Source of the DNA: Candidatus Stoquefichus sp. SB1
GTDB taxonomy: Bacteria; Bacillota_I; Bacilli_A; Erysipelotrichales; Coprobacillaceae
NCBI RefSeq assembly: GCF_001244545.1
Contig: NZ_LN852696.1
Location: 496,001 to 560,000 of the forward strand
Direction: 5' to 3'
DNA length: 64,000 nt
Below, piece after piece: positions 1,785-62,772 of this stretch. A program made the position numbers and the translations under genes. Each line of letters begins with the position of its first letter. Position 1 is the first letter of the stretch. The notes beneath the pieces are model-generated. The model made no database searches, was not told the DNA's origin, and worked only from the letters and a program-made list of their open reading frames with translations.

Positions 1785-1820
1785 GTGCAAGCGTAAACAA
1801 AATAGGTGAGGAGAAAATGT

Positions 1821-3119: not shown

Positions 3120-3151
3120 AAAGGAAAGACAGACGTCTTTGGTGAATAAAA

Positions 3152-3418: not shown

Positions 3419-4503
3419 AAAGAGCATTAGGAATATCTATTTATCCTGAACATAGTACACCTGATAAAGATAAAGCATATTTAAAACTTGCTAGTGAATA
3501 TGGTTTTACAAGAGTCTTCACATGCTTGTTATCAGTTAATAAACCTAAAAATGAAATCATTGCAGAATTTAAAGATATTATTCAATATGCTACAAGTTTA
3601 AACTATGAAGTCATATTGGATGTTGCTCCAGCTGTTTTTGATCAATTAGGAATTTCATATGATGATTTGAGTTTCTTTTATGAAATGGGAGCAACAGGTA
3701 TTCGTCTAGATATGGGATTTGATGGAGCTAAAGAAGCAATGCTTACATTTAATCCTTATCATTTAGCAATTGAAATTAATATGTCAAATAATGTTGCTTA
3801 TCTTGACAATATTATGACATATCAACCTAATGCACCATTCCTTTATGGTTGTCATAACTTCTATCCTCAAAAAGGAACGGGGTTAGACTATGATTTCTTT
3901 GTGAAATGTTCTCAACGTTTTAAACAGCAGGGAATAAGAACAGCAGCCTTTATTAATTCACATGATGCAACAATTGGACCATGGTCAATTAATGATGGAT
4001 TATGTACATTAGAGATGCATCGTGATTTACCAATTGATGTTCAGGCAAAACATCTTTTTGCAACAAACTTAATTGATGATGTCATTATTGGTAATGCCTA
4101 TGCAAGTTGTGAGGAATTAGCTGCTTTGTCAAAAATTAATCGTTATCAGTTAGAATTAAATGTTGAAGTATTCAATCAGACAACAGATATTGAAAAGGAT
4201 ATAATGTTTAATGAACAGCATTATCGTCGTGGAGATATAACGAAACAAGCAGTACGTTCTACTGAAGTCAGAAAAAAACAAGTTGATAAAGATATTTCAA
4301 GTCATGATAATTTGGCATCATTACAATTAGGGGATGTTGTTATTGGGAATAATCTTTTTGGAAAATATAAAGGTGAACTTCAAATTATCTTAGAAGAGTG
4401 TTATGATGAACGTAAGAATAAAGTTGGAAGAGTTGTTACTGAAGAATTATTTTTAATAAATTATATAGACGCATGGACAAAATTTAAATTGAAAGAGAAA
4501 TGA
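3415..4503 (+). CDS. MupG-family TIM-barrel 6-phospho-glycosidase (DUF871)
   Basis: 362 residues. The N-terminus (LGISIYPEHS, then YGFTRVFTCLLSV) and the barrel segment GATGIRLDMGFDG are typical of the MupG/DUF871 family. The C-terminal roughly 110 residues are the cyclophilin-like domain usual in this family. The characterised member, Staphylococcus aureus MupG, hydrolyses MurNAc-6-phosphate-GlcNAc inside the cell. Here there is no MurQ etherase beside it; instead the gene starts four bases inside the small membrane-protein gene and ends four bases inside an amidohydrolase gene, followed by glucosaminate-catabolic enzymes. A different phosphorylated amino-sugar disaccharide is therefore likely. 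The family is secure; substrate is inferred. Confidence 0.88.
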   Translation: MKRALGISIYPEHSTPDKDKAYLKLASEYGFTRVFTCLLSVNKPKNEIIAEFKDIIQYATSLNYEVILDVAPAVFDQLGISYDDLSFFYEMGATGIRLDMGFDGAKEAMLTFNPYHLAIEINMSNNVAYLDNIMTYQPNAPFLYGCHNFYPQKGTGLDYDFFVKCSQRFKQQGIRTAAFINSHDATIGPWSINDGLCTLEMHRDLPIDVQAKHLFATNLIDDVIIGNAYASCEELAALSKINRYQLELNVEVFNQTTDIEKDIMFNEQHYRRGDITKQAVRSTEVRKKQVDKDISSHDNLASLQLGDVVIGNNLFGKYKGELQIILEECYDERKNKVGRVVTEELFLINYIDAWTKFKLKEK

Positions 4504-5612
4504 TGAGAGTGGAAAATTATGTAATCAAGCAAGCAAGACTTATAAATGAAGAGCGAGTAGATATACTTGTTGAGAATGGTATTATTCAAAAAATTGCCCC
4601 ATGTATTGAGACTTCATATGAAACATTGAATTTTCAAGATTGTTATGTGAGTGCTGGATGGATTGATATTCATACACATTGTTTTGATAAATTTGAAATC
4701 TATGGTGACCAGGCTGATTTCATTGGTTATCCTCATGGTGTATGTACTGTTGTAGATGCAGGGACAGCAGGGAGTGATACAATTGATGAATTTTATCAGC
4801 AAGTCAAAAATGCAAAGACAAGAGTTTATTCTTTATTAAATATATCCAGTCCAGGAATTTTTGCTCAAGATGAATTAGCTGATTTAAAACGTTTAAATCA
4901 AGAAGCTATTGTTCAGGCATGTCAAAAATATCCTCAATTTATTGTTGGATTAAAAGCCAGAATGTCAAAGAGCGTATTAGGAGATTCAGGGAATCAGCCA
5001 TTAATATTTGCTAAGGAAATGCAAAAGTTTGTTAATTTACCAATTATGGTACATATTGGAACAGCTCCAAGTGTATTAGAAAATATTGTGGATATGTTAG
5101 ATGAATATGATATTATAACACATGTTTTTAATCCTAAACAAAATGGTATTCTTGATAAGGGATACATCAAGGATTGTGTTTATCAGGCAATTGAAAAAGG
5201 TATTATTTTAGATTTAGGTCATGGAACTGATAGTTTTTCATTTGAAACTGCTAAAATAGCATTTCAAAATGGAATAAAAGTGAATACTATTAGTAGTGAT
5301 ATTTATTTTAAAAATCGAATAAATGGACCAGTTTATGATCTTGCTACAACCATGAATAAGATGTTATATATTGGCTATTCATTAGCCGAAGTGATTCGCT
5401 GTGTAACAGTGAATGCATCTAAAGCTTTACACCTTGATCATCTAGGTAGTATAGAAGTTGGGAAAACTGCCGATTTTACAGTTTTTCATATTTGTCCACA
5501 AGACATTGAATTGACAGATTCATTACACCAAAAAGTGACGATGTGTCATTATTTAAAGCCAGATTATACAATTGTGAAAAATCATCTTTATCAAATAGAG
5601 GAGGATAAATAA
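4500..5612 (+). CDS. Amidohydrolase/deacetylase-type metallohydrolase (COG3964)
   Basis: 370 residues of the amidohydrolase superfamily. Visible metal-site motifs are GWIDIHTHCF near residue 55, a Lys in VGLKARMS (the usual carboxylated Lys position), MVHIGT, DLGHGTDSF and SSDIYF. The C-terminal part (LGSIEVGKTADFTVF) is the standard end of the family. The COG3964 branch was long misnamed dihydroorotase or adenine deaminase; related enzymes hydrolyse acyl groups such as N-acetyl amino acids. In this operon, placed just before a DgaE-like ammonia lyase, removal of an N-acetyl group from an acetylated aldonate is the most sensible role. That role is inference. Confidence 0.85.
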   Translation: MMRVENYVIKQARLINEERVDILVENGIIQKIAPCIETSYETLNFQDCYVSAGWIDIHTHCFDKFEIYGDQADFIGYPHGVCTVVDAGTAGSDTIDEFYQQVKNAKTRVYSLLNISSPGIFAQDELADLKRLNQEAIVQACQKYPQFIVGLKARMSKSVLGDSGNQPLIFAKEMQKFVNLPIMVHIGTAPSVLENIVDMLDEYDIITHVFNPKQNGILDKGYIKDCVYQAIEKGIILDLGHGTDSFSFETAKIAFQNGIKVNTISSDIYFKNRINGPVYDLATTMNKMLYIGYSLAEVIRCVTVNASKALHLDHLGSIEVGKTADFTVFHICPQDIELTDSLHQKVTMCHYLKPDYTIVKNHLYQIEEDK

Positions 5613-6703
5613 TGGATGTTTATGAAAAATATCATGTGAGTCGAGTTATTAATGCATCAGGGAAAATGACCATTCTTGGGGGTTCAAGAGTGAATGAGCA
5701 GATTATTGACCAATGTGCAATTGGGGCTGGAAATTTCTTTGAAGTGAAAAACTTGCTTGATAAGACGGGGGAATATATAGCTCATCTTTTAAATGTTGAG
5801 AGTGCCTATATTGTCAATAGTGCATCGGGTGGAATTGCCCAGGCAATAGGTGCGGCTATTTGCCAAGATGATTATCATAAAATCATGAATCTTTATGACC
5901 CATCACTTTTAAAAAGAGAAGTCATTATTTGTAAAGGGCATAATGTTAATTATGGTACAGCAATTGAAGTGACAATGCGTTTGGGTGGAGCAAAGGTTGT
6001 AGAGGCAGGATATGCTAATGAATGTACTTTAGAAAGCGTTAAAGCTTGTATTCATGAAAATACAGCAGCTCTACTTTATGTTAAATCACATCACTGTGTA
6101 CAAAAGGGAATGCCGACACCAGAAGAATTTATTGATTTAGCACACCAGTATCATTTACCAGTTATTGTAGATGCGGCTGCTGAAAGTGATTTGATAAAAT
6201 ATTATCAAATGGGAGCGGAATGCGTGATTTATTCAGGAACAAAAGCATTAGGTGGACCAACTTCTGGGTTGGTTATTGGTAAGAAAAATTATATTGATCT
6301 TATTAAGATGCAATATGCTGGAATTGGACGAATTATGAAAGTCGGAAAAGAAAACATAATTGGTTTAACTTATGCAATTGAAGAATATGTGCGTAAGCCA
6401 CAAATGACAATAGAACAGCAAACTGCACGTTTCAAACAATTTAATGATTTATTAAATCAATTAAATGGTATATCAGCAAAATGTATTCAAGATGGTGCTG
6501 GACGTCCAATTGTACGTAGTGAAATTACATTGAAGACACATGATGCTAAAGAAGTCAGTCGCTTGTTAAAAACTGGTGATGTGCATATTTATACTCGTGA
6601 TTATAAAGCAAATTTAGGACAAATTGAAATAGATATACGTGATGTCAATGATGAAGAATTGATGATGATTTATCAACGTATTAAAGAAATAGTGGAGGAA
6701 TAA
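5612..6703 (+). CDS. dgaE: DgaE-like PLP-dependent ammonia lyase (SelA-fold)
   Basis: 363 residues, fold type I PLP enzyme. INASGKMTILGGSRVNEQII near the start and the SGTKALGGPTSG motif around residue 210, with the Schiff-base Lys, match D-glucosaminate-6-phosphate ammonia lyase (DgaE) of the SelA-like group. DgaE removes ammonia from 2-amino-2-deoxygluconate (6-phosphate) to give the 2-keto-3-deoxy product. Its ATG shares a base with the stop of the preceding gene and has GAGGAGG upstream. Whether this enzyme prefers the phosphorylated or free substrate is open; the KdgK-like gene downstream hints at the free acid. Confidence 0.88.
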   Translation: MDVYEKYHVSRVINASGKMTILGGSRVNEQIIDQCAIGAGNFFEVKNLLDKTGEYIAHLLNVESAYIVNSASGGIAQAIGAAICQDDYHKIMNLYDPSLLKREVIICKGHNVNYGTAIEVTMRLGGAKVVEAGYANECTLESVKACIHENTAALLYVKSHHCVQKGMPTPEEFIDLAHQYHLPVIVDAAAESDLIKYYQMGAECVIYSGTKALGGPTSGLVIGKKNYIDLIKMQYAGIGRIMKVGKENIIGLTYAIEEYVRKPQMTIEQQTARFKQFNDLLNQLNGISAKCIQDGAGRPIVRSEITLKTHDAKEVSRLLKTGDVHIYTRDYKANLGQIEIDIRDVNDEELMMIYQRIKEIVEE

Positions 6704-6704
6704 G

Positions 6705-7445
6705 ATGGAAAAGAAACCAAATTACTTAAATGATCGAATTTGTTTAAATGTCTTAACAAATTCATTAGCAAATGCCAAGGCATTATATGATATTACTAAA
6801 GGACATATTTTATTAGGATTATTATCTAAAAATTATCCAGATAATGCTTCAGCAATTGAAGATATGTTAAAATATGCAGCCATTACTGATAATTGTATAT
6901 CAGTTGGTTTAGGGGCAGGAGATCCCAAACAATCTCAAATGGTCAGTGAAATTTCACAATATATTCAACCTAGACATGTTAATCAGGTTTTTACTGGTGT
7001 GGGAACAACACGCGCTTTACTTGGACAAAATGATACAGTTGTTAATGGGCTTATTTCTCCTACAGGAACAGTGGGAATGGTCAAAATTTCTACCGGTCCA
7101 TTAAGTAGTCAAGGAAAAGATGCCATTGTGCCAGTTGATACAGCAATTATGATGTTAAAAGATATGGGATGTTCATCAGTCAAATTCTTTCCTATGAAAG
7201 GGTTATCTACAAAAGATGAATATGAAGAAGTTTGTCATGCTTGTGTCCGCAATGATTTTATGTTAGAACCAACAGGTGGCATTGATTTAGATAACTTTAA
7301 AGAAATATGTCAAATTGCATTAGATGCAGGAGTCAAAAAAGTGATTCCTCATGTCTATTCATCAATTATTGATCAAGAAACAAAGTTAACACGTGAAGAA
7401 GATGTTCAAAAATTATATGAAATGATGAAAGATTTAACAAAGTAG
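6705..7445 (+). CDS. dgaF: DgaF-like 2-keto-3-deoxy-6-phosphogluconate aldolase
   Basis: 246 residues of the KDPG-aldolase TIM-barrel class. The Lys in SSVKFFPMKGL is the expected Schiff-base residue, and the LEPTGGIDLDNF strand matches the phosphate-binding end of the barrel. The protein is longer than classical Eda (about 210 residues), as DgaF-type aldolases are. It would split KDPG into pyruvate and glyceraldehyde 3-phosphate. It begins one base after the dgaE stop with GTGGAGG upstream, and belongs to the same transcript. Confidence 0.88.
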   Translation: MEKKPNYLNDRICLNVLTNSLANAKALYDITKGHILLGLLSKNYPDNASAIEDMLKYAAITDNCISVGLGAGDPKQSQMVSEISQYIQPRHVNQVFTGVGTTRALLGQNDTVVNGLISPTGTVGMVKISTGPLSSQGKDAIVPVDTAIMMLKDMGCSSVKFFPMKGLSTKDEYEEVCHACVRNDFMLEPTGGIDLDNFKEICQIALDAGVKKVIPHVYSSIIDQETKLTREEDVQKLYEMMKDLTK

Positions 7446-7453
7446 GTGAATGT

Positions 7454-8449
7454 ATGAAAATATTAGCATTTGGAGAAGTTATGATGCGTATGATGCCATC
7501 TGACTATAAAACATTAACACAAGTCAATGAATTAGAGTTTTTATTTACAGGAACAGGTATCAATATATTATCTGGATTATATCAGATGGGAGAACAGGTT
7601 TCATTTGTGACTAAACTGCCAGATAATGCAATTGGAAAAGCGGCCAGTGCTAATATTAGAAAACTTGGTATTGATGATCGTCATATTGTTTATGGTGGAT
7701 ATCATATGGGGATATATTTTTTAGAAAAAGGTATAGGTAATCGTGCCAGTCAAGTGACATACTTAAACCGTAAAGATAGCTCTTTTGGACAAAGTCAGTT
7801 ATCTGATTATGATTTTTCTTGTTTAGATGGCCAAGATGCTTTGCATATTTGTGGGATATCTTTAGCAATGAATGAAAATGTGAGAGAAGTTGCATTTGCT
7901 TTTGTGAAGGAAGCAAAACAAAGAGGTTTAAAAGTTATTTTTGATTGTAATTTTAGACCAAGTCTTTGGAGCGATGATGAACGACCTTATGTCAAAACAA
8001 TTTATGAAGATATGTTGAATCTAGCTGACATTGTTTTTGCAGGTTATAAAGATGCAACACTTTTATTAGAAATGACTGTTGATAATACCCTCCCTTTCAA
8101 ACAACAGTTAGAATATTTGCTTAAACAAATGTGTCAACAATATCATATAGAAACAATATTTGGAACAATCCGCAATGAAGATAGTATAACGGGTTATATG
8201 ATGAATTGTGGTCAGCTTGTAAAGAGTAAAGAATATGTGCTGACAGTTTATGATCGTGTTGGTGGTGGAGATGGTTTTGCCGCAGGAGCTATTTATGGAT
8301 ATTTACACCAAATGAATCCTAATGACCTTATCAATTATGCGACAGTAAGTGGTGTTTTAGCACATACGACTTATGGAGATAGTCCAATTGTTACAAAAGA
8401 ACAAATTAATGATTTTATAAAATATGGAAAAGAAGATATCAAAAGATAA
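7454..8449 (+). CDS. PfkB-family sugar kinase, probable 2-keto-3-deoxygluconate kinase
   Basis: 331 residues of the ribokinase/PfkB family. The N-terminus (ILAFGEVMMRMMPSDY, then FTGTGINILSGLYQMGEQV) resembles KdgK-type kinases, and YDRVGGGDGFAAGAIYGYL carries the catalytic Asp and anion hole. It would phosphorylate 2-keto-3-deoxygluconate to KDPG, the DgaF substrate. It is the last gene of the operon and is followed by a terminator. Its presence implies that an unphosphorylated keto-deoxy acid is formed upstream, so the aldonate half of the imported sugar probably lacks the PTS phosphate. Family secure, substrate inferred. Confidence 0.85.
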   Translation: MKILAFGEVMMRMMPSDYKTLTQVNELEFLFTGTGINILSGLYQMGEQVSFVTKLPDNAIGKAASANIRKLGIDDRHIVYGGYHMGIYFLEKGIGNRASQVTYLNRKDSSFGQSQLSDYDFSCLDGQDALHICGISLAMNENVREVAFAFVKEAKQRGLKVIFDCNFRPSLWSDDERPYVKTIYEDMLNLADIVFAGYKDATLLLEMTVDNTLPFKQQLEYLLKQMCQQYHIETIFGTIRNEDSITGYMMNCGQLVKSKEYVLTVYDRVGGGDGFAAGAIYGYLHQMNPNDLINYATVSGVLAHTTYGDSPIVTKEQINDFIKYGKEDIKR

Positions 8450-8463
8450 TTTGATTGATTCTT

Positions 8464-8505
8464 AGCTGTTGACGAATTTGCTTTGTCATACAGCTTTTTA
8501 TTTTT
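8464..8505 (+). terminator. Terminator of the EIIC-MupG-Dga operon
   Basis: AGCTGTTGAC pairs with GTCATACAGCT (one bulge) and is followed by TTTTATTTTT. Confidence 0.7.
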
Positions 8506-8684
8506 ATATGGTATGAAAGGAAATTGAAGAGAATTATTTTTTAATAATGTGTTACTCTTTCAAAAACACTTTGGGATAGTTAATAACAGTATTCTTCTAT
8601 TAAAAACAACATGTTTTTTTAAAATGGTTTAAAAAAACGAAAGAGAATACAGATAGCAAATTTATTTTCAAGAGATGAAAATAT

Positions 8685-8713
8685 TGTGCAAAGTTTCTAA
8701 ATATGATTATACT
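8685..8713 (+). promoter_or_regulatory. Probable promoter of the GH4 gene
   Basis: TTGTGC (8685-8690), a 17-base spacer and TATACT (8708-8713) lie upstream of the AAGGAGG site of the GH4 gene. The rest of the 291-base gap holds the preceding terminator and AT-rich sequence, in which GTATTCT near 8590 could pair with AGAATAC near 8645; no operator was recognised. Confidence 0.5.
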
Positions 8714-8740
8714 GTAAGTATAGAACAAGGAGGATGAATA

Positions 8741-10141
8741 ATGGAAAAGAAACCTGTTAAAATTGTTACAATCGGTGGAGGAAGTAGTTATACTCCAGAA
8801 TTAATGGAAGGATTTATCAAAAGATACGATGAACTTCCTATCAGAGAAATTTGGTTAGTTGATATTGAAGATGGTAAGGAAAAAATGGAAATCGTTGGTG
8901 CTATGGCTCAACGTATGTGGGATGCATCTCCTTATGATGTCAAAGTGCACATGACTTTGGATCGTAGAGAAGCATTACCAGGTGCTGACTTTGTTACAAC
9001 TCAATTTAGAGTTGGTTTATTGAATGCTCGTATCAAAGATGAAAGAATTCCTTTCTCTTATGGAATGCTAGGACAAGAAACAAATGGTGCTGGAGGAATC
9101 TTCAAAGCCTTTAGAACAATTCCAGTCATCTTAGGTATTGTAGAAGACATGAAAGAATTATGTCCTGATGCTTGGTTAATTAACTTCACAAATCCAAGTG
9201 GAATGGTGACAGAAGCAGTCATGAAATATGGTCAATGGGACAAAGTTATTGGATTATGTAATGTACCAGTAGGTGCAATGATGAAAGAACCAGAAACAAT
9301 TGGAAAAACATTAGATCAATTAACTTATAAGTTCGCTGGATTAAATCATTTCCACTGGCATAAAGTTTATGATGAAAATGGAAAAGAAGTGACTCAAGAT
9401 ATTATTGATGCAATGTATGAAGGTAAAGATGGTGGATTACCAGCAAACATTCATGACATTCCATTCTTCAAAGAACAATTAGATACTATGAAAATGATTC
9501 CTTGTGGATATCATAGATATTACTATCGTCAACAAGAAATGTTGGCACATGGATTAGAAGAATATAGTGATCCAAAAGTAGGAACACGTGGACAACAAGT
9601 GAAACAAACAGAAGCAGAATTGTTTGAATTATACAAAGATCCTAACTTAGATCATAAACCAGAACAATTAGCGAAACGTGGAGGAGCACATTATAGTGAT
9701 GCAGCATGTGAAACAATTGCATCAATCTATTCAAATGCCAATAGACACATTGTTGTGACAACAAGAAATAATGGAGCAGTGCCTGATTTACCAGCAGACT
9801 GTGCAGTAGAAGTTTCAGCATACATTGGAGCAACAGGAGCAAAAGCAATTGCGTTTGGAGAATTGCAACCAGCAGAAAAAGGATGGTTACAATGCATGAA
9901 AAACATGGAACACTGTGTAGAAGCAGCAGCAGTAACAGGAGATTATGGAATGGCATTACAGGCATTCATCTTAAATCCACAAATTCCATCAGGAGAAAAA
10001 GCAAAACAAGTATTAGATGAATTATTATTAGCACATAAGAAATACTTACCACAATTTGCAGAAAAGATTGCAGAATTAGAAGCAGCAGGAGTCACAATTA
10101 AAGATGATGTTGCTAGAGAATTAACTGAAAAAGGATTATAA
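8741..10141 (+). CDS. 6-phospho-beta-glucosidase, glycoside hydrolase family 4
   Basis: 466 residues. The N-terminal Rossmann motif IVTIGGGSSYTPELMEGF binds NAD, a hallmark of GH4. Family motifs follow in order: LVDIEDG, LGQETNGAGGI, FTNPSGMVTEA, GLCNVPVGA and FAGLNHFHW, the last two holding Cys and His residues of the Mn site. GH4 enzymes use NAD and a divalent metal in an oxidation-elimination mechanism and act on 6-phosphorylated glycosides made by PTS uptake. The sequence is closer to the LicH/CelF (beta) type than the alpha-glucosidase type. It is a single-gene transcript; the RpiR regulator gene downstream may control it. Confidence 0.92.
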   Translation: MEKKPVKIVTIGGGSSYTPELMEGFIKRYDELPIREIWLVDIEDGKEKMEIVGAMAQRMWDASPYDVKVHMTLDRREALPGADFVTTQFRVGLLNARIKDERIPFSYGMLGQETNGAGGIFKAFRTIPVILGIVEDMKELCPDAWLINFTNPSGMVTEAVMKYGQWDKVIGLCNVPVGAMMKEPETIGKTLDQLTYKFAGLNHFHWHKVYDENGKEVTQDIIDAMYEGKDGGLPANIHDIPFFKEQLDTMKMIPCGYHRYYYRQQEMLAHGLEEYSDPKVGTRGQQVKQTEAELFELYKDPNLDHKPEQLAKRGGAHYSDAACETIASIYSNANRHIVVTTRNNGAVPDLPADCAVEVSAYIGATGAKAIAFGELQPAEKGWLQCMKNMEHCVEAAAVTGDYGMALQAFILNPQIPSGEKAKQVLDELLLAHKKYLPQFAEKIAELEAAGVTIKDDVARELTEKGL

Positions 10142-10150
10142 AAAATCTGG

Positions 10151-10180
10151 AAAGATACTTCAAATGAGGTATCTTTTTTC
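10151..10180 (+). terminator. Terminator after the GH4 gene
   Basis: AAAGATAC and GTATCTTT form the stem, followed by TTTC; the stem starts 10 bases after the stop. Confidence 0.85.
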
Positions 10181-10308
10181 TGATTATAAATATAAATAAT
10201 TATTTAAATGTATAAAATTATATCTATATAGAAAAGCTTAAGTTATATATTTTTTTTCTTTGAAATCTTATCATGAATAAATTATAATAAAAAAAGAGGT
10301 GATAAATC

Positions 10309-11076
10309 ATGTTATTCACATATCGACAAATAGCTGAATTAAATGAAACAGAAACATTTATTTATCAATATGTTATTAAAAATATTTCAGCAGTAGCTAA
10401 GATGAGTATTAGAAAGTTAGCTGATGAAACACATGTTTCAACAGCTACTATTGTTAGATTTTGTCAAAAACTAGACTGTTTAGGGTATGCTGAATTTAAA
10501 ACAAAATTAAGATTGTTCCAAAAAGGTTTAACACTTCCTGCTGTTGATGATGAAATAGATACTATTCAGGATTTTTTCGAATATGCTAAAAGTGATAATT
10601 TCAAGAAAAAGATAAATCAGTTTGTCGATTATGTAGAACATGCAGATCAAATATTTTTTTTAGGAATTGGAACAAGTGGTTTATTAGGAAGATTTGGTGC
10701 TAGATATTTTTCTAATGTTGGATACTTTAGTCAAGGAATTGATGATCCTTATTATCCACCACCATGTAATGAAAGTCAGAATAATCTTTTGATTGTATTA
10801 AGTGAGAGTGGTGAAACAAGAGAGGTCATTGATCAATTAAAAATGTATCAAACAACCAAAATGAAGATTGTTACAATCACTAATAAAAAAGGAACAACAA
10901 TAGATCGTATGGCTGATCTTAGCATACATTATTATATAGAAGATATAATTTTACCTCAAACATATAATGTATCTACACAAATTCCTGTCATGTATATCCT
11001 TGAACGTGTTACAAGGGAATTACAAAATCGTAAAGTGAAATTTCTTCCATTAAAGTCTACAAGCAGAAATTTATAA
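10309..11076 (+). CDS. RpiR/MurR-family transcriptional regulator with SIS domain
   Basis: 255 residues. Residues 1-75 are the RpiR helix-turn-helix (SIRKLADETHVSTATIVRFC, then LDCLGYAEFKTKLR). Residues about 100-235 are a SIS phosphosugar-binding domain (IFFLGIGTSGLLGRFGARYF, LLIVLSESGETREVI). Regulators of this family sense phosphorylated sugars. It lies between the GH4 6-phospho-glucosidase and the glucanase genes, all on the same strand, so it may control one or both. GAGGTG precedes the ATG. Confidence 0.9.
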   Translation: MLFTYRQIAELNETETFIYQYVIKNISAVAKMSIRKLADETHVSTATIVRFCQKLDCLGYAEFKTKLRLFQKGLTLPAVDDEIDTIQDFFEYAKSDNFKKKINQFVDYVEHADQIFFLGIGTSGLLGRFGARYFSNVGYFSQGIDDPYYPPPCNESQNNLLIVLSESGETREVIDQLKMYQTTKMKIVTITNKKGTTIDRMADLSIHYYIEDIILPQTYNVSTQIPVMYILERVTRELQNRKVKFLPLKSTSRNL

Positions 11077-11119
11077 TTTTTGCTTTTTATTTTAGTTTTC
11101 TTGTTACAAAAAATGTAAC

Positions 11120-11155
11120 GGTTTACATATTTGATGTAAGCCCTTTTTCTTTTCT
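11120..11155 (+). terminator. Terminator after the RpiR gene
   Basis: GGTTTACAT pairs with ATGTAAGCC (one G-T pair) before CTTTTTCTTTTC. A second small hairpin, GTTACA/TGTAAC, lies just upstream at 11103-11119. Confidence 0.7.
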
Positions 11156-11250
11156 CTTGTTTATGATAATTTAACAGTGTGATGAAAAGGCATTCGCTAT
11201 TTAAGCGTTGTTATAAAGCGCATATAATTACACTTAAATAAGTTTGTGAT

Positions 11251-11285
11251 GGAATACTTAAAAGTTGGCCCCTTTTAAGTATTCC
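11251..11285 (+). promoter_or_regulatory. Perfect inverted repeat in the leader of the glucanase operon
   Basis: GGAATACTTAAAAG (11251-11264) and its exact reverse complement (11272-11285) enclose a 7-base loop, TTGGCCC. A TATAAT at 11223-11228 could place it at or just after the transcription start. No T-run follows, so it is not a normal terminator. It may be an operator, an mRNA-stabilising hairpin or a protein-binding leader structure. Confidence 0.6.
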
Positions 11286-11332
11286 TCAAAATGTATTTCA
11301 TGATATTGAGAGAAAGGGAGAACAAAGAAGAT

Positions 11333-14300
11333 ATGTTAAAAAAAGTAAAGTCGATAAATTACAAAGCTTTATTGCTAGTTTTTGGTATGATTGTTACGCT
11401 TATAAAACCAGTGCCAATTGCTGCTGCCAGTGCTACAGTACCTGAATTTAGCACAGATAAAACATATGCAATTGTATTAAAGTCAACAAATAAAGCTGTG
11501 CAAGTTAGAGATGTGTCATGGCAAGAAGCAGGAGCGGTACATGTTGATGGAATAGTGAGTGATGGAAAAACAAACAGTAAAAGTGGCTTTGAAATAAAAA
11601 AAGATAATGATGGGAAGTATTTTTTTAATTCAGTTGCTAATAGTGTACAGTTAAAATGTGAGGGTGTTTTAGGTGAAGGTATCTCATTTGTGTTCAATTT
11701 AGAAAAAGATTCAAATAATCATAAATTTTCAATTGAAGCAACAGATGAAGGATTAAAGCTAAAGTCTAATGCTGGAGCTTATCTTGGAGTAGATTCAGAT
11801 GATATGCTCATTAAAGTATCTGATGATAAAGCAGCATTGTTTGATATTCAAGAAGTGATAGTTGCAGATGATTCAGTAACTATTGAAAATGTAGATACTA
11901 AAAAATTAGTCACTTTTAAAGATCAAACAGAACTGGAAGCAATTAAAGTGACAGGAGAAAAAAATAATGTGACAAATGATGAAAAATTTACAACTGTCTA
12001 TACATCAAACGATAATCATGTTATTGAAGATATGAAAGATAAGACGATAGACACAGTAGGTTTTAAATCGAAATCTCATCCAAATATGGTTATTATTTCA
12101 GCATATTGGAATGATGGTGCTGATAGTCAAATCGTAGCTAAAGCTTCTAACCCTGGTGGTTGGGAATCTGTGGTTGTAAGTCCTAATGGTGATGGTACAG
12201 TTTCATTAAGAAGTTCATATACTTATCAGTATATCACGGTTAATGACAAAAACGAATTAGAACTATGTGATAAAAAAACTGAGGAATTAACAGATAGAGA
12301 AAAGTATATTATTCATACGGATGCTCCTGCTGAATTAAGTCTTGCAACTGATTTTAAAGTTAGGGACAAAGGAGAAACTGCAACCAGTATTGATTTATCA
12401 TGGACGAATCCAACAAAATGTATCTATACAGGGTTAGAATTATTACAGGCAAATCAAGAGGGAAGATTTGAAAAAATAGCGGATGTATCAAATCGGTCTT
12501 CATATAAAGTAGAAGGATTAAATTCGTCAACAACCTATCAATTTAAATTACGTACAGTGAATGCAAATGGTGAAACTGAATCGGTTAGGTTTTTGTCTAA
12601 AGATACTGAAGCGATAAGTGCAACAACGCTTTCTGGTGTAAGACCTGGAATACCTACAAATGTCAATTGTCAAAGTCGTGATGATGGTAAAATTGATATT
12701 ACTTGGAAAAAATCAGAAAATGCGACAAATTATGTAATTCAAAGAGCTGAAAGTTTATACAGTCAATATGAAGAAGTAGCAAAAGTAGATGGAGATGCTA
12801 CAACTTATACATATGAATATACTAATGGAAAATATGAAAATTATTTTAGAGTTGTTGCTGATAATAACAGAGTTCAATCTAAAGAGTCAAATACTACATC
12901 ATTAGAAACTCAATTATTTGGAAAGAATGTCTTAATATTTTCAGAAAAAGACGATATAGCAATGGTTAATAAATTAATTAGAGATATCTATAATGAACAA
13001 AGTGATTTTAAAGCTAATGCACAGTTTAATCAAAAAAGATATGCTATTTATTTTAAACCAGGTGATTATACTGGATTAAATACAATTCCAGTTGGGTTCT
13101 ATACTCAAGTTGCTGGGTTAGGTGAAACACCAAATGATGTTTCTGTTAATAATATTACAGTACCAGCATATTTAGATGATAATAATGCAACTTGTAATTT
13201 CTGGAGATCAATTGAAAACTTAGCTGTAAAAAAAGTTGATCCAGTTGAAGGTGATGATGTATTTGGTGCTTATGGAAATGGCGATTCCCCAGATAAGGGA
13301 CGTGACCGTTATTTAAACTGGTCAGTTGCCCAAGCTGCACCAATGAGAAGAATTGATTCTGAAAGAGCAGTTGCTTATGACTGGAATTTTGGATGGGCTA
13401 GTGGTGGATACAATGCTGATAGTAATATATCTGGTTTTGTAGATGATAATGGAACTGCTATTAGCGCAGGAACTTTTTCAGGACAACAGTTCTATACAAG
13501 AAATACAAATATAGCAAAAAATGTTTATGGATGTACATTAAATCATTTCTTCCAAGGGGTAAAAGGGGGTAATCTTCCTACTGATGATCCACTGTTAGGT
13601 GGAAATGGTTATAGTAATTGGAAAAAACCTAATGATAAAGGAGAACAACAAATTGTAACCAATATAGCAACTACTCCTATTATTAGAGAAAAACCATTCT
13701 TGTTTATGCAAAATGGTGAATATAAAGTATTTGTTCCATCTATTAGAAAAGATGCTACAGGTACAAGCTGGTCAGCTGGTAATATGGGTGAAGGAAAAGT
13801 TGTTTCTTTAGATGAATTCTATATTGCAAAAGAAGGCGATACTGCTGAAAAAATTAATGAACAATTAGATAATCAGAAAAATGTTTTCTTTACACCAGGA
13901 ATATATCATGCTGAAGAAACTATTAATGTTAATAAAAAGGATACAGTTGTATTAGGAACAGGAATGGCTTCTATTGTTCCAGAAAACAAAGATGCAGCAA
14001 TGAAAGTTGCTGATGAAGATGGTATAACAATTGCTGGATTGATTTTTGATGCTGGAACTTATAATTCTGAATATATGTTACAAGTAGGAACAAGTAGCGC
14101 ATCAAAAGATCACAGTGCTAATCCAACATTATTAGCTGATTTATTCTTCCGCATTGGTGGAACAACAAATGAAGCTACATCTGCTAAAAATGCATTAGAA
14201 ATAAATAGCAATAATGTTATTGGCGATCATTTCTGGATTTGGCGTGCTGATCATGGTGCTGGGGTAAGCTGGCATGGTAATGCAGCACAAAATGGTTTAA

Positions 14301-16126
14301 TTGTAAATGGTGATAATGTAACATGCTATGCATTATTCAATGAACATTTTGAAGATTATACAACATTATGGAATGGTGAAAATGGGAGAACATATTTCTA
14401 TCAAAATGAAACTGCATATGATGCAATTTCTCAGGATCCATCAAATGAAGATGCATGGTTATCTCATAATGGAACAGTAAAAGGATATGCTTCATATAAG
14501 GTATCTAATAATGTTAATAGTCATTATGCTGTAGGATTAGGAATTTATAATGTATTTATTTATACAGGTGGAGGAGAATTTGGTAAAAAGTATTATGATG
14601 GGGGAGTACAAATTGAGTTAGATAATGCCATTGAAGTACCAAATAAAGAAAATGTTATTGTAGAAAATGCTTGTTTACAAACATTTGCTAAATCTGGTGT
14701 AGAAGGTGGTTTATACCAAAGTACAAATCACATTATTAATGGAGTTGGTACTGGTGTATCTGCAGGGTATTTAAGAGAAGAAACAAGAGCTGCTGATGGG
14801 TCGCTAAATGGTAGACTTTTAGATAAAGATGGAAATCCTTTGCCGACTAAGATTTATACTATTAAATCTAAAAATGAGTTTGACGCTGATGTATTTAAGT
14901 ATGTCATTAGAGAAGTAGATGATAAAGGCAATGAAATAGTTTTAAATGGTAATGATGATGAATATGATTTAGATGCATTAGTAAAGAAAGGTTTCACTTA
15001 TAACATAAATAAAGATTCTGGTGCATTAGAAGTTTATAATAATGGAAATTGGATTAATCCAGGGGATTTCCAATATATTATACCTCTCCGTGATACTCCT
15101 ATTTCAAAAGCTGTCAAAGGTAATGGATGGGCAAGAACATTCTTAGCAAGTTATCAAAATGGTACGGCCATCTATGGAAAGGCACCTACATCAAAATCTG
15201 AATTTAATAAATTTATTGGTTTAGAAACTAAAGAAAATGTTGCTCAACCAATGAATGAAAAGGGTGATGTTAATGTGACTGCATTGCAAAATGCATATAA
15301 TGAAGCATTAAAATTAAAAGCAGAAAATTATTCTAAGACTTCATGGAATGTATTTAATAAAGCTTTAGAAATTGCTAAAAAACAAATTATAAATCCATAT
15401 ACTGTTGAAGGAATGAAAGATGATAAATCTTGTATTGAACTTTGGGGAAAACAAGCAGATGTACAACCTGCAGTTGATGCATTAAATGCTGCTATTAAAC
15501 AATTAACAGTTGATAAAACTGAATTAAATAATCTTATAAAAACTCAAATTGAAGATAAATCTCAATATACAGAAAAATCATATAATGATTATATGAAAGC
15601 GTTAGAAGTGGCTAAGGGGATTATTGATAAGAAAGATGCAACGCAAAAAGAAATTGATGATGCATATAAGACATTACAAACATCAATAAACGGTTTAACT
15701 ATAGATAAATCAAAATTAGAAGAATTAGTAAAAACTGAAGTTGATAAATCTAAGTATACAGAAGAATCATACCTTGCTTATACAAAAGCATTAGAAACAG
15801 CTAAAAAAGCTATTGATAATGAAAAAGCAACATCAAAAGAAATCAATGCTGCTTATAATGATTTAGCTCAAGCAATTAAAGAATTAAGAGTTATTGATTC
15901 TCAAACAGAAGAACCTAATAAGGATACAACTCCTGATCAATCTGGTCATAATCAATCAGATAATAAAAAAACTGATGGAACAAATCAAGCAAAACCAACA
16001 ACAAAAATACATGCATCAAAAAATGCAAAAACTGAAGATGAAACACCATTAACAGTATATGCATTCTTAGGTTTATGTGCGATTTCAGGAGCATATGTGG
16101 TTTGCAAAAGAAAAAGAGAAAATTAG
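11333..16126 (+). CDS. Large secreted, wall-associated GH55-like beta-helix glycosidase
   Basis: 1597 residues from ATG 11333, chosen because it begins a clear signal peptide (MLKKVKSINYKALLLVFGMI, cleavage probably after AAASA near residue 34). Domains in order: a beta-trefoil-like N-terminal region (about 40-180); two fibronectin type III domains (about 330-430 and 436-525); a long parallel beta-helix region (about 527-1296) with YAIYFKPGDY, GFYTQVAGLG and VSWHGNAAQNGL, typical of GH55-like proteins of actinobacteria and Firmicutes often misnamed adenylyl cyclase; three helical FIVAR-like repeats (about 1315-1520); a Lys/Thr-rich linker; and KTEDETPLTVYAFLGLCAIS plus a basic tail, resembling a sorting signal. 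GH55 enzymes cut beta-1,3-glucan, which agrees with the GH128 gene six bases downstream. The exact activity is inferred. Confidence 0.8.
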   Translation: MLKKVKSINYKALLLVFGMIVTLIKPVPIAAASATVPEFSTDKTYAIVLKSTNKAVQVRDVSWQEAGAVHVDGIVSDGKTNSKSGFEIKKDNDGKYFFNSVANSVQLKCEGVLGEGISFVFNLEKDSNNHKFSIEATDEGLKLKSNAGAYLGVDSDDMLIKVSDDKAALFDIQEVIVADDSVTIENVDTKKLVTFKDQTELEAIKVTGEKNNVTNDEKFTTVYTSNDNHVIEDMKDKTIDTVGFKSKSHPNMVIISAYWNDGADSQIVAKASNPGGWESVVVSPNGDGTVSLRSSYTYQYITVNDKNELELCDKKTEELTDREKYIIHTDAPAELSLATDFKVRDKGETATSIDLSWTNPTKCIYTGLELLQANQEGRFEKIADVSNRSSYKVEGLNSSTTYQFKLRTVNANGETESVRFLSKDTEAISATTLSGVRPGIPTNVNCQSRDDGKIDITWKKSENATNYVIQRAESLYSQYEEVAKVDGDATTYTYEYTNGKYENYFRVVADNNRVQSKESNTTSLETQLFGKNVLIFSEKDDIAMVNKLIRDIYNEQSDFKANAQFNQKRYAIYFKPGDYTGLNTIPVGFYTQVAGLGETPNDVSVNNITVPAYLDDNNATCNFWRSIENLAVKKVDPVEGDDVFGAYGNGDSPDKGRDRYLNWSVAQAAPMRRIDSERAVAYDWNFGWASGGYNADSNISGFVDDNGTAISAGTFSGQQFYTRNTNIAKNVYGCTLNHFFQGVKGGNLPTDDPLLGGNGYSNWKKPNDKGEQQIVTNIATTPIIREKPFLFMQNGEYKVFVPSIRKDATGTSWSAGNMGEGKVVSLDEFYIAKEGDTAEKINEQLDNQKNVFFTPGIYHAEETINVNKKDTVVLGTGMASIVPENKDAAMKVADEDGITIAGLIFDAGTYNSEYMLQVGTSSASKDHSANPTLLADLFFRIGGTTNEATSAKNALEINSNNVIGDHFWIWRADHGAGVSWHGNAAQNGLIVNGDNVTCYALFNEHFEDYTTLWNGENGRTYFYQNETAYDAISQDPSNEDAWLSHNGTVKGYASYKVSNNVNSHYAVGLGIYNVFIYTGGGEFGKKYYDGGVQIELDNAIEVPNKENVIVENACLQTFAKSGVEGGLYQSTNHIINGVGTGVSAGYLREETRAADGSLNGRLLDKDGNPLPTKIYTIKSKNEFDADVFKYVIREVDDKGNEIVLNGNDDEYDLDALVKKGFTYNINKDSGALEVYNNGNWINPGDFQYIIPLRDTPISKAVKGNGWARTFLASYQNGTAIYGKAPTSKSEFNKFIGLETKENVAQPMNEKGDVNVTALQNAYNEALKLKAENYSKTSWNVFNKALEIAKKQIINPYTVEGMKDDKSCIELWGKQADVQPAVDALNAAIKQLTVDKTELNNLIKTQIEDKSQYTEKSYNDYMKALEVAKGIIDKKDATQKEIDDAYKTLQTSINGLTIDKSKLEELVKTEVDKSKYTEESYLAYTKALETAKKAIDNEKATSKEINAAYNDLAQAIKELRVIDSQTEEPNKDTTPDQSGHNQSDNKKTDGTNQAKPTTKIHASKNAKTEDETPLTVYAFLGLCAISGAYVVCKRKREN

Positions 16127-16132
16127 GTGAAT

Positions 16133-17935
16133 ATGATGATAAGCAAATATATTAAGAAAACAGGTCTGGCACTTTTAAGTGCTGGACTACTTCTTTCACC
16201 GATTTCAGTTTTTGCCGCAACTTCACAGGATTATTCAAGCTGGAAAAGCGAAGCTTTACAATATCCACAAAAAGGACAATTGGTGCCAGCTGGCCCAATT
16301 CAAATTACATGGGATGCTCTGAGTTTAAATGATACAAATGTAAAACAGTATAATGTTTATCTAGATGATGATCAGCCTATTACTGTTGCTCATAATGAAG
16401 AAAAAGAACAAAATATAGAAATTTATACAACGGAGGTGAAAAGCCACCAATTACATATTTCTGCTATATTGGATGATGGTAGTGAAATTAATACCAATCA
16501 AAGAACTTTCTATGTCTCTAAAAAGGGAGTTGCATATGAAAATGTTGACGATGTTGAAAATTTAGATGCCTCATGGTATTACAACTGGGGGACTCAACCA
16601 ACTGCGAAAAAGTCAAATTTAGATTTTGTACCAATGATTTGGGGTCATTCACAAAATGAACTTAATAATCTACAAAATATAAAAACTGATGGATATACGA
16701 CTGTTCTTGGTTTTAATGAACCAGAGGGAACATTGGGAGGTCAATCGAATGTTTCAGTTAATGATGCTATCACAAGTCTAGAAGATTTTCGTAACAGTGG
16801 TTTAAGAGTTGGTTCTCCTGCTGTTGAACATATCAGTGAAATAGCTGATGATGGTTCATGGATGAATCAGTATATGCAACAAGTTGCTCATGATGATATT
16901 GATTTTATTGCTGCACATGAATATTTCTATGATATATGTGGTGAAAATACGAAGAAAGAAGCTATTCAATTTTTAGATAGTTTACAGACTGTTTATGAAT
17001 TATATCAAAAACCAATATGGATTACTGAAATAGGTGTTGTTAATTGGGATGAAAATTGGCCACATTATTCATATACGAATGAAGAAGGAAAAGCAGAAGT
17101 CCAGGAATTTATGGATTATATTGTGAATGGGGTAGATGGCTATAAAGGATTAGATGATCTTGAATATGTTGAAAGATACGCCTGGTTTCCATTTGATACA
17201 ACCAGTACAGCTGCTGGTGCTTCCGGACTTTTCTTTACGGGAAGTGATATTAAACAAAATGCTCAGTTAAGTTTAGGAGCGTTGACGCAATTAGGTCAAC
17301 AATATAAAAACTATAGCCTTGCTGATGATTATCAATCTGATATTATGCCTGATGATGTTTATATGGATGATAATATTGTGGAGATAGAAAAGAAAGTGAC
17401 TGTTTATATTGATGAAAATAATTATGAGATAGAAATGGGAAGTATCTTTGCTCAACCTAAAGATCCATCTAAAGAAGGTTATAAGTTCGTTGGATGGTAT
17501 AGTGATGATAAATTCATAAACTTATATGATTTCTCTCAACCCGTTTGTGATGATTTATCACTCTATGCAAAGTTTGAAAAATTAGATGAGCCAGTAGAAT
17601 ACTGGATTGTTAAAGTTGGTGAAACAACTTATCAAGTTGAAAAAGGAACAACACTTTCAAAAATCAGTGATCCAGTCAAAGATGGATATGTATTTAAAGG
17701 CTGGTATACTGATGCTGATTTCTTACATGCATTTGATTTTGATAAGGCTATTGATAGCGATATTGAACTCTATGCAAAGTGGGAAAAAGCAACAGAAAAT
17801 ATTTCTGATGAAGATAATACAGTAACTGAAAAGAAAACAACAGTAACAACAAGTGATGCAACACAAATATATGTTTTTGTTATGATGATGGTTATTTCAG
17901 GAGGAATGTTATTTATTACAAAAAGAAATTCTTAA
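16133..17935 (+). CDS. Secreted GH128-type beta-1,3-glucanase with InlB B-repeats
   Basis: About 600 residues. ATG 16133 (or 16136) follows AGGTGA; the 5' neighbour stops at 16126, so the two genes form an operon. A signal peptide (GLALLSAGLLLSPISVFA) is followed by a short beta-sandwich region (about 35-140) and an Asl1/GH128 catalytic domain (about 145-400). The two expected catalytic Glu are visible: TTVLGFNEPEG (about E196) and IWITEIGVVNW (about E299). Two InlB B-type repeats follow, each with the pattern YKFVGWYSDD or YVFKGWYTDA and ending in LYAKFEK/LYAKWEK. A C-terminal membrane segment (IYVFVMMMVISGGMLFI) and basic tail anchor it, without LPXTG. GH128 enzymes are endo-beta-1,3-glucanases. 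Confidence 0.87.
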   Translation: MMISKYIKKTGLALLSAGLLLSPISVFAATSQDYSSWKSEALQYPQKGQLVPAGPIQITWDALSLNDTNVKQYNVYLDDDQPITVAHNEEKEQNIEIYTTEVKSHQLHISAILDDGSEINTNQRTFYVSKKGVAYENVDDVENLDASWYYNWGTQPTAKKSNLDFVPMIWGHSQNELNNLQNIKTDGYTTVLGFNEPEGTLGGQSNVSVNDAITSLEDFRNSGLRVGSPAVEHISEIADDGSWMNQYMQQVAHDDIDFIAAHEYFYDICGENTKKEAIQFLDSLQTVYELYQKPIWITEIGVVNWDENWPHYSYTNEEGKAEVQEFMDYIVNGVDGYKGLDDLEYVERYAWFPFDTTSTAAGASGLFFTGSDIKQNAQLSLGALTQLGQQYKNYSLADDYQSDIMPDDVYMDDNIVEIEKKVTVYIDENNYEIEMGSIFAQPKDPSKEGYKFVGWYSDDKFINLYDFSQPVCDDLSLYAKFEKLDEPVEYWIVKVGETTYQVEKGTTLSKISDPVKDGYVFKGWYTDADFLHAFDFDKAIDSDIELYAKWEKATENISDEDNTVTEKKTTVTTSDATQIYVFVMMMVISGGMLFITKRNS

Positions 17936-17965
17936 AGAATAGTTCATAGTTATTTCACACATATA

Positions 17966-18008
17966 AAAAATACTATCTTAATCAAAAGATAGTATTTTTT
18001 AGTGCTTA
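17966..18008 (+). repeat. 43-bp direct repeat, copy 1, containing a terminator hairpin
   Basis: Identical over 43 bases to 20507-20549. It contains ATACTATCTT/AAGATAGTAT with an AATCAA-type loop and a T-run, so it terminates the glucanase operon. The last bases (TTAGTGCTTA) match the 3' end of the TetR gene at copy 2, suggesting copy 1 carries a relic of the original junction. Confidence 0.9.
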
Positions 18009-18199: not shown

Positions 18200-18820
18200 A
18201 TGAAAAAATATAATGTATTTAGTAAGTTCTGCTCTGTGTTTTTATCATTAGCATTTGTTTTAGCAATGATGTTGAATGTTGTTGAAGCAAAAGATTCTAT
18301 ACAGTATGATAATCATACTGCAGGAACTGAGGAATTCAGTATTTTAGATGGTGAGGTTAAACAAACTGTTAAAACAGATGATGGCACTTGGACTTTTACA
18401 ATTGAGGATGTTGAACCTAAAAATCCAACAATCACTCCTTATTACGAACAGAATTGGGTAATAGGAAGCTTTAATAAAAAAGTATCTGCGATTTTAGAAG
18501 ATATAGAAGGTATTGAAACGAGTCTTCTAGCAAAAATGAGTGCTAGATTTGCTGGGTCAATCAATCCTTCTGTCGCTAGAATAACTAAAGTTTCAGATGG
18601 AGATTTTAATGCTACAATTATTAATCCAATTCCTAATACAGAAAAATATGAAATATTACAATCTAGTGCAACTCCTAATGATTATCCAGCTCAGGCAAGA
18701 TTTCGTCAGAAATATTCAATTAGTACACCTTTTGGAGTGTATGGACAGCATGATATGTGTCTATATCTTTGTGTAACAACTACTGGATACGCTAGAATTT
18801 ATATGGAAGGAATATGGTAG
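18200..18820 (+). CDS. Secreted protein of unknown function, 206 residues
   Basis: A signal peptide is clear: basic start MKKYNVFSKF, hydrophobic stretch VFLSLAFVLAMMLNVV, cleavage probably after VEA near residue 30. The mature part is about 175 residues, beta-rich in appearance, with two Cys near the C-terminus (MCLYLCVTTTG). I do not recognise the family. No strong ribosome site precedes the ATG (AAAAAGAATG). It is followed by a 48-residue membrane protein on the same strand, then a terminator, so the two make a small operon inside the repeat-bounded accessory segment. Confidence 0.7.
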   Translation: MKKYNVFSKFCSVFLSLAFVLAMMLNVVEAKDSIQYDNHTAGTEEFSILDGEVKQTVKTDDGTWTFTIEDVEPKNPTITPYYEQNWVIGSFNKKVSAILEDIEGIETSLLAKMSARFAGSINPSVARITKVSDGDFNATIINPIPNTEKYEILQSSATPNDYPAQARFRQKYSISTPFGVYGQHDMCLYLCVTTTGYARIYMEGIW

Positions 18821-19261: not shown

Positions 19262-20027
19262 GTGAGTGTGTTGTCTGTAAACTATGTCACAAGAGGATAT
19301 CAGGTTCCTCTTTATCCTAATGCAATGCAAAAGGTTCTTCTGAAAAAGACTTTTGGCTGTACTCGCCTTGTCATTAATCACTTTCTTGCGATTCAAAAAG
19401 AAAGCCTAATGAATCAGGGACATATCTATACAAAAATTCAGATATCCCATATGCTGACGCTTATGAAAAAGGATGAACAGTTTTCATTCCTTGGAGAAGT
19501 GGATTCTGTTGCTCTGCAGTCATCATGTGAAAATCTTGACTTGGCTTTCACTAAGTTCTTTAAGGAGCATAAGGGATTTCCGCATTTCAAGAAGAAGGGA
19601 TACTACAGCAGCTATACAGCCAAGAACAATAACGAATGCATACGTACTGGTCATAACTGCATAAGACTTCCTAAGATTGGCTGGGTGAAAACCAAGCTCC
19701 ACCAGTCCATAGAAGGTCATATTCAGAGAGTCAGTGTTATTGATCATGGAGATGGAAGCTATTCCCTTTCCATATGTGCCTCATGTGTTCTAGTAGAGAC
19801 ACTGGATATCCAATCAATGATGAATGGAATGGTATGGAAAGAAGTTCATCAGGATCGATCAGTATGAACCCAGCTCACAGAGATGTCATGTCTGTGGATA
19901 CATCAATAAGAAAGTCAGGGACTTAGGCATAAGGGAATGGGAATGTCCAGAATGTCAAACAAAGCATAATCGGGACATCAATGCAGCAATCAACATCAAA
20001 AAAGCTGCCAATAGAATAGCAGCATAA
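19262..20027 (+). pseudogene. tnpB: tnpB (IS605 OrfB) with internal deletion and frameshift
   Basis: The N-terminal part (NYVTRGYQVPLYPNAMQKVL, then FGCTRLVINHFLA) runs to a stop at 19867. The C-terminal part continues in another frame from about 19824: YGKKFIRIDQYEPSSQRCHV, a CxxC...CPEC zinc finger and NRDINAAINI with the last RuvC Asp. Together they make about 255 residues against the usual 370 or so. The stretch that should carry the first two RuvC acidic residues is absent, lost between the VETLDIQ and EWYGKKF regions. The nuclease must be inactive. Confidence 0.88.

Positions 20028-60992: not shown

Positions 60993-62772
<1,780 letters not shown>

Follow-up and report, generated by a model that had tools for sequence, protein, structure and literature searches.

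Analysis of a 64,000-nucleotide (nt) stretch of the Candidatus Stoquefichus sp. SB1 genome (contig NZ_LN852696.1, positions 496,001 to 560,000; hereafter the window, with positions counted from its first letter) points to what is probably a three-gene beta-1,3-glucan cassette. It consists of an RpiR-family regulator and two surface enzymes, of glycoside hydrolase families GH55 and GH128, with a candidate operator and a structured leader RNA in front of the enzyme genes. The enzymes are of known kinds; the new part is the control region, in which a conserved DNA site is followed by a folded RNA. Judged from sequence comparison, the leader is very probably a conserved RNA structure, supported well for stem P3, moderately for P1 and weakly for P2. 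The chances are about even that the GH55 leader, working together with the RpiR activator, belongs to a class of cis-acting structured RNA not yet described, placed where operator-sharing sister genes have a cyclic di-GMP (c-di-GMP-I) riboswitch.

Comparisons were made across 43 genomes of the host family, own genome included, and 315 genomes of the order. Genomes, contigs and loci are cited below by working numbers (G, C and L, respectively).

Probable structured leader upstream of GH55

A P3-type hairpin whose 7-nt loop is built around GGCC was located downstream of the promoter in all nine leaders (loop TTGGCCA in five, TTGGCCC in the window, and CTGGCCA, ATGGCCA and TAGGCCG in the others). 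Across its 14 pairs, 81.7% of the cells of alignment A2 were paired and both sides had changed in 12 of the 14; covariation amounted to 0.607 versus 0.213 (standard deviation, sd, 0.045) in shuffled data, with 0 of 500 shuffles as high, and to 0.105-0.236 when the pairing was slid. Taken singly, P3 hairpins folded better than the shuffle mean in 8/9 leaders, the exception being G013. The window leader (11172-11340) had a minimum free energy of -42.1 kcal/mol (z -4.4, 0/200 shuffles as good), with P1 enclosing P2 and P3, and whole-leader z-scores ranged from -4.8 to -0.3. Run on whole leaders aligned with MAFFT, RNAalifold recovered P3 alone, the lengths of P1 and P2 being variable; P1 was therefore assessed with a permutation test. 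P1 can form in every one of the nine leaders with a sequence differing between genomes, and the summed energy of its own pairs was -102.5 kcal/mol versus -67.3 (sd 8.4) for permuted partners (1/20,000 as low). P2 was a clear hairpin in six leaders.

Searching the window leader against Rfam (4227 families) returned nothing at the gathering cut-off (best E 0.94), and RF01051, the c-di-GMP-I riboswitch, had no match in it. The L102 leader reached E 0.08 with a plastid family below the cut-off, the L099 leader had a best E of 0.98, and the GH55 leaders of L096 and L097 gave no match at gathering. A covariance model of P3 built from the nine leaders (R1) was run with strict filters over the order genomes; at E <=0.05 it returned the nine leaders and two other places, both in coding frames. 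Further weak matches were recorded in G008 (E 0.31) and G003 (E 0.90), while those in G040, G019, G028:C26, G015 and G226 were rejected as lying inside coding frames. P3 as a genome-wide repeat was also rejected, with one copy in its own genome. Across 50 sources, comprising part of the GH55 loci, R1 found only the window, the family loci L019, L021 and L024, echoes of three of them on the opposite strand, and L067 (E 0.48). It should be added that thousands of candidate RNAs have been reported from human microbiomes (PMC8040213); the main text of that study has no match for glucan or Erysipelo, and its tables may hold the element. As for function, we lean slightly towards a leader that modulates how the GH55-GH128 message is translated or how stable it is.

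Candidate operator, promoter and operator-sharing genes

The RpiR-GH55 gap carried the array TGTTACA-N4-ATGTAAC-N2-GTTACAT with 0-2 mismatches in all nine genomes, and the extended -10 element TGnTAnnnT was found exactly 35 nt past the array in each of them. No second copy was detected in the own genome at <=3 mismatches. Ten places with 0-1 mismatch were found in the 43 genomes: eight were RpiR-GH55 gaps, one was the RpiR-GH55 remnant of G039, and in G014 one stood ahead of a PA14 surface gene that neighbours GH128. A search allowing 3 mismatches yielded 28 places versus 10 for the reversed control pattern, and matches at this level are mostly chance. Among the 2-mismatch matches inspected (G029:C68, G021 and G011), the one in G029, located ~190 nt before what by eye was supposed to be a phosphotransferase system (PTS) EIIC gene, was not counted, because Pfam and PDB gave nothing for its 98 amino acids (aa). 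A terminator-like match at 11120-11142 is taken instead to belong to the operator array.

The half-site of the array resembles the site of the RpiR-family regulator HexR, TGTAATTAAATTACA, as given in the pertinent section of PMC11906056. Read from the sequence, RpiR likely binds the predicted array and, with a phosphosugar bound, would activate the promoter; it is considered an activator because the array stands upstream of the extended -10 element at a fixed distance. The earlier note, made from the letters of this DNA, had called this RpiR, which is borne out by Pfam (HTH_6 1.1e-14, SIS 5.1e-16), and had put both enzymes in an operon downstream of it. GH55 and GH128 do abut (stop 16126, start 16127 or 16133); RpiR is probably transcribed as a unit separate from GH55, since a 256-nt gap with its own promoter lies between them.

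Operator copies with 1-3 mismatches were also present in G013 and G014 before PA14/SHIRT and Cna_B surface genes adjoining GH128, with no TGnTAnnnT within 60 nt. Between these operator-like sites and the gene starts lie RF01051 riboswitches scoring 53.5-60 bits; in L096 RF01051 was placed only before the Cna_B gene, and in L097 nowhere. The surface genes with operator-like site and riboswitches occupy 9786-12239 and 4634-9616 in L132 (minus strand) and 1351-6735 in L133 (plus strand). The GH55 leader is placed, like these riboswitches of the two relatives, after an operator-like site and ahead of a surface-protein gene, but differs in giving no covariance match to RF01051. That surface genes sharing the operator carry such riboswitches suggests a coupling between the digestion of glucan and surface attachment in these two relatives.

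Conservation of the cassette

GH55 was detected in 9 of the 43 family genomes and GH128 in eight, all of them within those nine (Fisher p 6e-8, uncorrected for relatedness); in the order, GH55 was confined to 9 of the 315 genomes, all in the host family. The two genes are adjacent in seven genomes and probably also in G014, as judged from a GH55-type tail preceding GH128 on contig C51, and the order RpiR-GH55-GH128 is conserved. An RpiR orthologue stands upstream of GH55 in all nine GH55 genomes, directly in eight, with one 496-aa AAA-ATPase-like frame intervening in G014; these orthologues matched at E 1e-78 to 1e-128, and paralogues in the own genome at E 1e-11 to 1e-19. Two contigs that bear names lead to the host family: L021, from an uncultured Thomasclavelia, matches G041, and L024, from Erysipelatoclostridium sp. 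An173, matches G035. Over 56 named GH55 loci with flanks of varying length, GH128 adjoins or is fused with GH55 in five (L021, L022, L023, L024 and L026). In L022, a Hespellia metagenome-assembled genome, both form one 1673-aa surface protein (7345-12366) preceded by a GH30 gene, and in L023 (7336-12384) they are likewise fused in one surface protein. Clostridium intestinale has the arrangement GH55-RpiR-GH55. Furthermore, G039, scored as GH55-negative and reached through the operator pattern search, has RpiR and a GH55 N-terminal frame with a stop after 494 aa (G039:C241, L134), and has kept the operator and the 35-nt spacing to TGnTAnnnT between them.

Several observations weigh against a conserved, folded and operator-controlled leader. 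The set is small, with six genera represented by nine sequences; three of these lack P2 or have it in a very short form. Folded as a whole, the G013 leader did not outperform its shuffles (z -0.3), and those of G009, G028 and G035 did so weakly (z -1.5 to -2.0). The G039 leader is without a GGCC hairpin though operator and spacing are present, GH55 loci outside the family had no hairpin in the R1 search of the 50 sources, and the Clostridium intestinale locus has neither operator nor hairpin. Moreover, the operator pattern and model R1 match in the nine genomes by construction, because they were derived from the same genomes, and G039 is the only near-independent case.

Our literature search turned up no paper on a GH55-GH128 cassette or its leader RNA in the host's family. 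The data widen the known biology of GH55 and GH128 to include a small group of gut-type Bacillota, in which the compact, conserved cassette provides a test case for fungal or yeast glucan use, while predicted operator, fixed-distance promoter and covarying leader lead to predictions decidable by one reporter series.

Surface GH55 and GH128 enzymes

Both enzyme genes were found where the earlier note had placed them, and its proposal of a surface pair from beta-1,3-glucan families beside an RpiR gene is supported by sequence and fold. The note had called the beta-helix protein GH55-like; we assign it to GH55 proper because of a sequence match and a predicted-fold alignment to SacteLam55A. In the sequence search, aa 530-1075 matched this GH55 enzyme (PDB 4pew) at E 4.5e-113. 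A model of aa 525-1335 (predicted local distance difference test, pLDDT, 82; predicted template modelling score, pTM, 0.85) aligned with 4pex/4pew at Z 49.6/49.5 and a root-mean-square deviation of 1.5 A over 542/548 residues, covering both beta-helices, and fungal GH55 structures came next (Z 23-24). This was the structure comparison the note had proposed, and the outcome that would have spoken against GH55, an unrelated fold, clearly failed to appear.

Eleven active-site residues of SacteLam55A (Thr149, Phe152, Gln174, Ser198, Trp444, Trp446, Asp449, Glu480, His481, Glu502 and Tyr505), whose roles in catalysis, proton relay, subsite -1 and the aromatic block were taken from the respective sections of PMC10637969, are all identical in the window protein. 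After removal of 5 of 78 matches (short or with X) and of identical copies, 63 rows remained in the GH55 alignment beside 4pew, among them the window itself (L009) and two pieces of one protein (L017 and L018); all eleven positions were kept throughout, except Tyr505 in L066. According to the same sections, three side chains fill the -2 space in SacteLam55A; they are numbered here Trp143, Phe144 and Gln150, where PMC10637969 prints Phe-143 and Trp-144. The window protein has Tyr, Leu and Cys at these positions, and in the alignment Gln150 is replaced by Cys in 63/63 rows, Phe144 by Leu, Met or Ala, while Trp143 is variable. Because the -2-filling residues are replaced, and fungal GH55 enzymes place a beta-1,6 branch in that space (PMC10637969), release of gentiobiose from branched glucan is a possibility for the present enzyme.

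The window protein thus shares with SacteLam55A the double beta-helix and the eleven residues, and differs from it, apart from the -2 side chains, in its length of 1597 aa with trefoils, fn3 and FIVAR domains (Pfam), membrane anchor and an insert late in the second helix. By eye, it has a signal-like N-terminus and a C-terminal anchor. The insert (~14770-15130), near the end of the GH55 domain, was modelled with low confidence and is absent from most relatives, as family GH55 matches mostly end near query residue 618. The tandem beta-trefoil module (pLDDT 84, pTM 0.74) matched fascin and two-trefoil lectins in Foldseek and designed trefoils in profile searches, and is a possible glucan-binding part, as far as the model goes. 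Its match to chains 7zoh and 7zoi, which we take to be CBM92, is weak (profile E 0.04-0.13). CBM92 is described, in the relevant part of PMC11039641, as a beta-trefoil binding beta-1,6-glucan, with trefoil modules attached to carbohydrate-active enzymes; the window trefoils are likewise joined to such an enzyme, but resemble CBM92 only at the above level.

The GH128 identity put forward in the earlier note stands, with Pfam Glyco_hydro_cc at 2.8e-42 and the best PDB sequence match to the 6uaq/6ufl series (E 6.7e-30). Both glutamate motifs, NEP and W-x-T-E (WITE), are present and aligned with 6uaq; the second Glu is Gln in 6ufl. Catalytic domain and both motifs are shared with the GH128 enzymes of PDB 6uaq-6ufz, from which the window protein differs in being surface-anchored, with Flg_new repeats, and paired with GH55. 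The C-terminal tails of GH55 and GH128, NAKTED and TVTTSD, are sorting-like (T-x-D) without the G that follows T in LPXTG-type sortase substrates; relatives mostly have KTGD or a variant, and several of the proteins show E, S, D or K in place of that G. Gram_pos_anchor had no match over the cut-off in the own genome, where one sortase gene was found. Considering sequence and predicted fold together, the assignment of GH55 and GH128 with intact active sites is secure at the family and active-site level.

Possible product uptake and proposed scheme

The earlier note held that the pair was far from its phospho-glucosidase partners, GH4 and GH1 of the same window. This is wrong for GH4, which ends 1.19 kb 5' of GH55 on the same strand. 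For GH1 the distance is real but uninformative: the own genome has 47 GH1 matches, two pairs of which are split genes, leaving ~45 genes, or 0.8 expected per 64 kb, with which the argument from presence in the window fails. GH1 was rejected as a specific partner, being attributable to chance, with nothing linking it to the cassette. It should also be added that the 3.59-Mb genome, with these ~45 GH1 genes and 41 SIS-domain matches, has a very large phospho-beta-glucosidase/RpiR complement.

GH4, represented by five genes in the own genome, is the better candidate, because it is adjacent and holds the same place in one other genome, G029 (L099), with the order GH4-RpiR-GH55-GH128. By its nearest solved relatives (1s6y) it is a 6-phospho-beta-glucosidase, and it carries the CNVP motif. 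In G028 a GH4 gene lies ~9 kb upstream of RpiR; none was found in the regions read, of unequal length, of the other six GH55 genomes. PTS genes were not consistently linked to the cassette in the relatives' regions examined; upstream of RpiR these had MreB, a PTS_EIIC_2 protein and MatE, and G028 several PTS EIIC genes in a row together with a further RpiR. The main imported product may be other than laminaribiose, because the reported products of GH55 exo-enzymes are glucose and, where the glucan is branched, gentio-oligosaccharides (PMC10637969).

Following the proposed scheme, GH128 would cut within beta-1,3-glucan chains and GH55 would trim the non-reducing end to glucose and, perhaps, gentiobiose from branched glucan, an endo/exo division of labour and set of products that we regard as highly likely from sequence and model. 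The products may then be taken up through a PTS and cleaved by a 6-phospho-beta-glucosidase, for which the adjacent GH4 is the best candidate; the case for this step is evenly balanced. Phosphosugar-bound RpiR on its array would activate the extended -10 promoter, and the transcript would begin with the folded leader, comprising P1, the variable P2 and P3 with a UUGGCCA-type loop.

Alternative explanations

Other readings of the leader were weighed. Its perfect 14-nt inverted repeat is intergenic and might be the DNA operator of a second regulator; the arms, however, vary with pairing kept, while the GGCC loop is conserved in 9/9, the opposite of a palindromic operator, and the repeat lies downstream of the promoter with an outer stem that covaries too, making this reading improbable. 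A terminator or attenuator, suggested by a stable hairpin ahead of a large gene, is more doubtful still: P3 lacks a U-run behind it in all nine leaders, and most relatives have, by eye, a separate U-tailed repeat between RpiR and operator. The three-stem layout, and the position of RF01051 between operator-like sites and the PA14/SHIRT and Cna_B starts in G013 and G014, would fit a ligand-binding riboswitch, yet the absence of an Rfam match, conservation in loops and not in the junction, and a single copy per genome preceding only GH55 render it unlikely. A conserved structured leader of the GH55-GH128 message is the reading we prefer.

Regarding control and purpose, many RpiR proteins repress, and a repressor released by phosphosugar is a lesser but tangible possibility. 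A site at constant distance upstream of an extended -10 element is an activator layout, and, as far as the cited sections go, the HexR site upstream of a promoter is viewed as activating (PMC11906056) and the RpiR-family regulators GlaR and ClaR of Lactococcus activate sugar genes, ClaR regulating celB and bglS (PMC6528599). The window RpiR resembles these two as a family member regulating sugar genes, and differs in that its neighbours are polysaccharide hydrolases of the cell surface and that it has a palindromic array of its own. Finally, the target of the enzymes might be a biofilm or cell wall with glucan in it, of yeast or other origin, met during contact, with feeding not their main purpose. 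Both are anchored, and their operator-sharing neighbours in G013 and G014 are adhesin-like and carry c-di-GMP-I riboswitches; RpiR control and the adjacent GH4, on the other hand, point to catabolism, and in the window the cassette has no adhesin gene of this kind next to it, so that we consider a contact role rather unlikely and favour glucan catabolism.

Features and neighbouring genes of the window

Coordinates of the cassette, its control region and the phospho-glucosidase genes within the window.
Feature	Position	Strand	Evidence or remark
GH4 6-phospho-beta-glucosidase	8741..10141	+	Pfam Glyco_hydro_4 1.3e-63; PDB 1s6y E 5.9e-157
Terminator-like repeat between GH4 and RpiR	~10151-10176		GH4 a separate unit
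RpiR-family regulator, HTH_6 + SIS, cassette-specific	10309..11076	+	Pfam
Candidate RpiR operator, TGTTACA-N4-ATGTAAC-N2-GTTACAT	11102..11128	+	1 mismatch in the window
Extended -10 promoter element, TGnTAnnnT	11164..11172	+	35 nt past operator
Structured mRNA leader (P1, P2, P3)	11176..11307	+	predicted folding, permutation test
Outer stem P1	11176-11194 paired with 11290-11307	+	permutation test
Hairpin P2	11196-11243	+	loop AAGCGCA, 11216-11222
Hairpin P3	11251..11285	+	perfect 14-bp stem, loop TTGGCCC
Surface GH55 protein, 1597 aa	11333..16126	+	start ATG 11333
Tandem beta-trefoil (fascin/ricin-like) module	11423..12367	+	model, Foldseek, profile matches
GH55 double beta-helix catalytic region, incl. 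insert near end	12920..15310	+	sequence match and model
FIVAR domain, better of two stretches	15512..15700	+	Pfam
Surface GH128 protein, two Flg_new repeats, C-terminal anchor	16127..17935	+	start GTG 16127 or ATG 16133
Terminator-like perfect 16-nt inverted repeat 3' of GH128	17964..18001	+	
GH1 6-phospho-beta-glucosidase	61339..62772	+	PDB 2xhy E 5.1e-219

Positions 1806-8449 hold, consecutively, genes for a PTS EIIC, a MupG-type 6-phospho-N-acetylmuramidase, an amidohydrolase, a SelA-like pyridoxal-phosphate enzyme, a 2-keto-3-deoxygluconate phosphate (KDGP) aldolase and a KDG-kinase-like protein, which together resemble a route for muropeptides or amino-sugar acids with KDG-phosphate as its end product. 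After the cassette, a 206-aa exported-looking frame (18200-18820) had no Pfam or NCBIfam match, and a short IS605 OrfB-type frame at 19262-19867 is probably a remnant.

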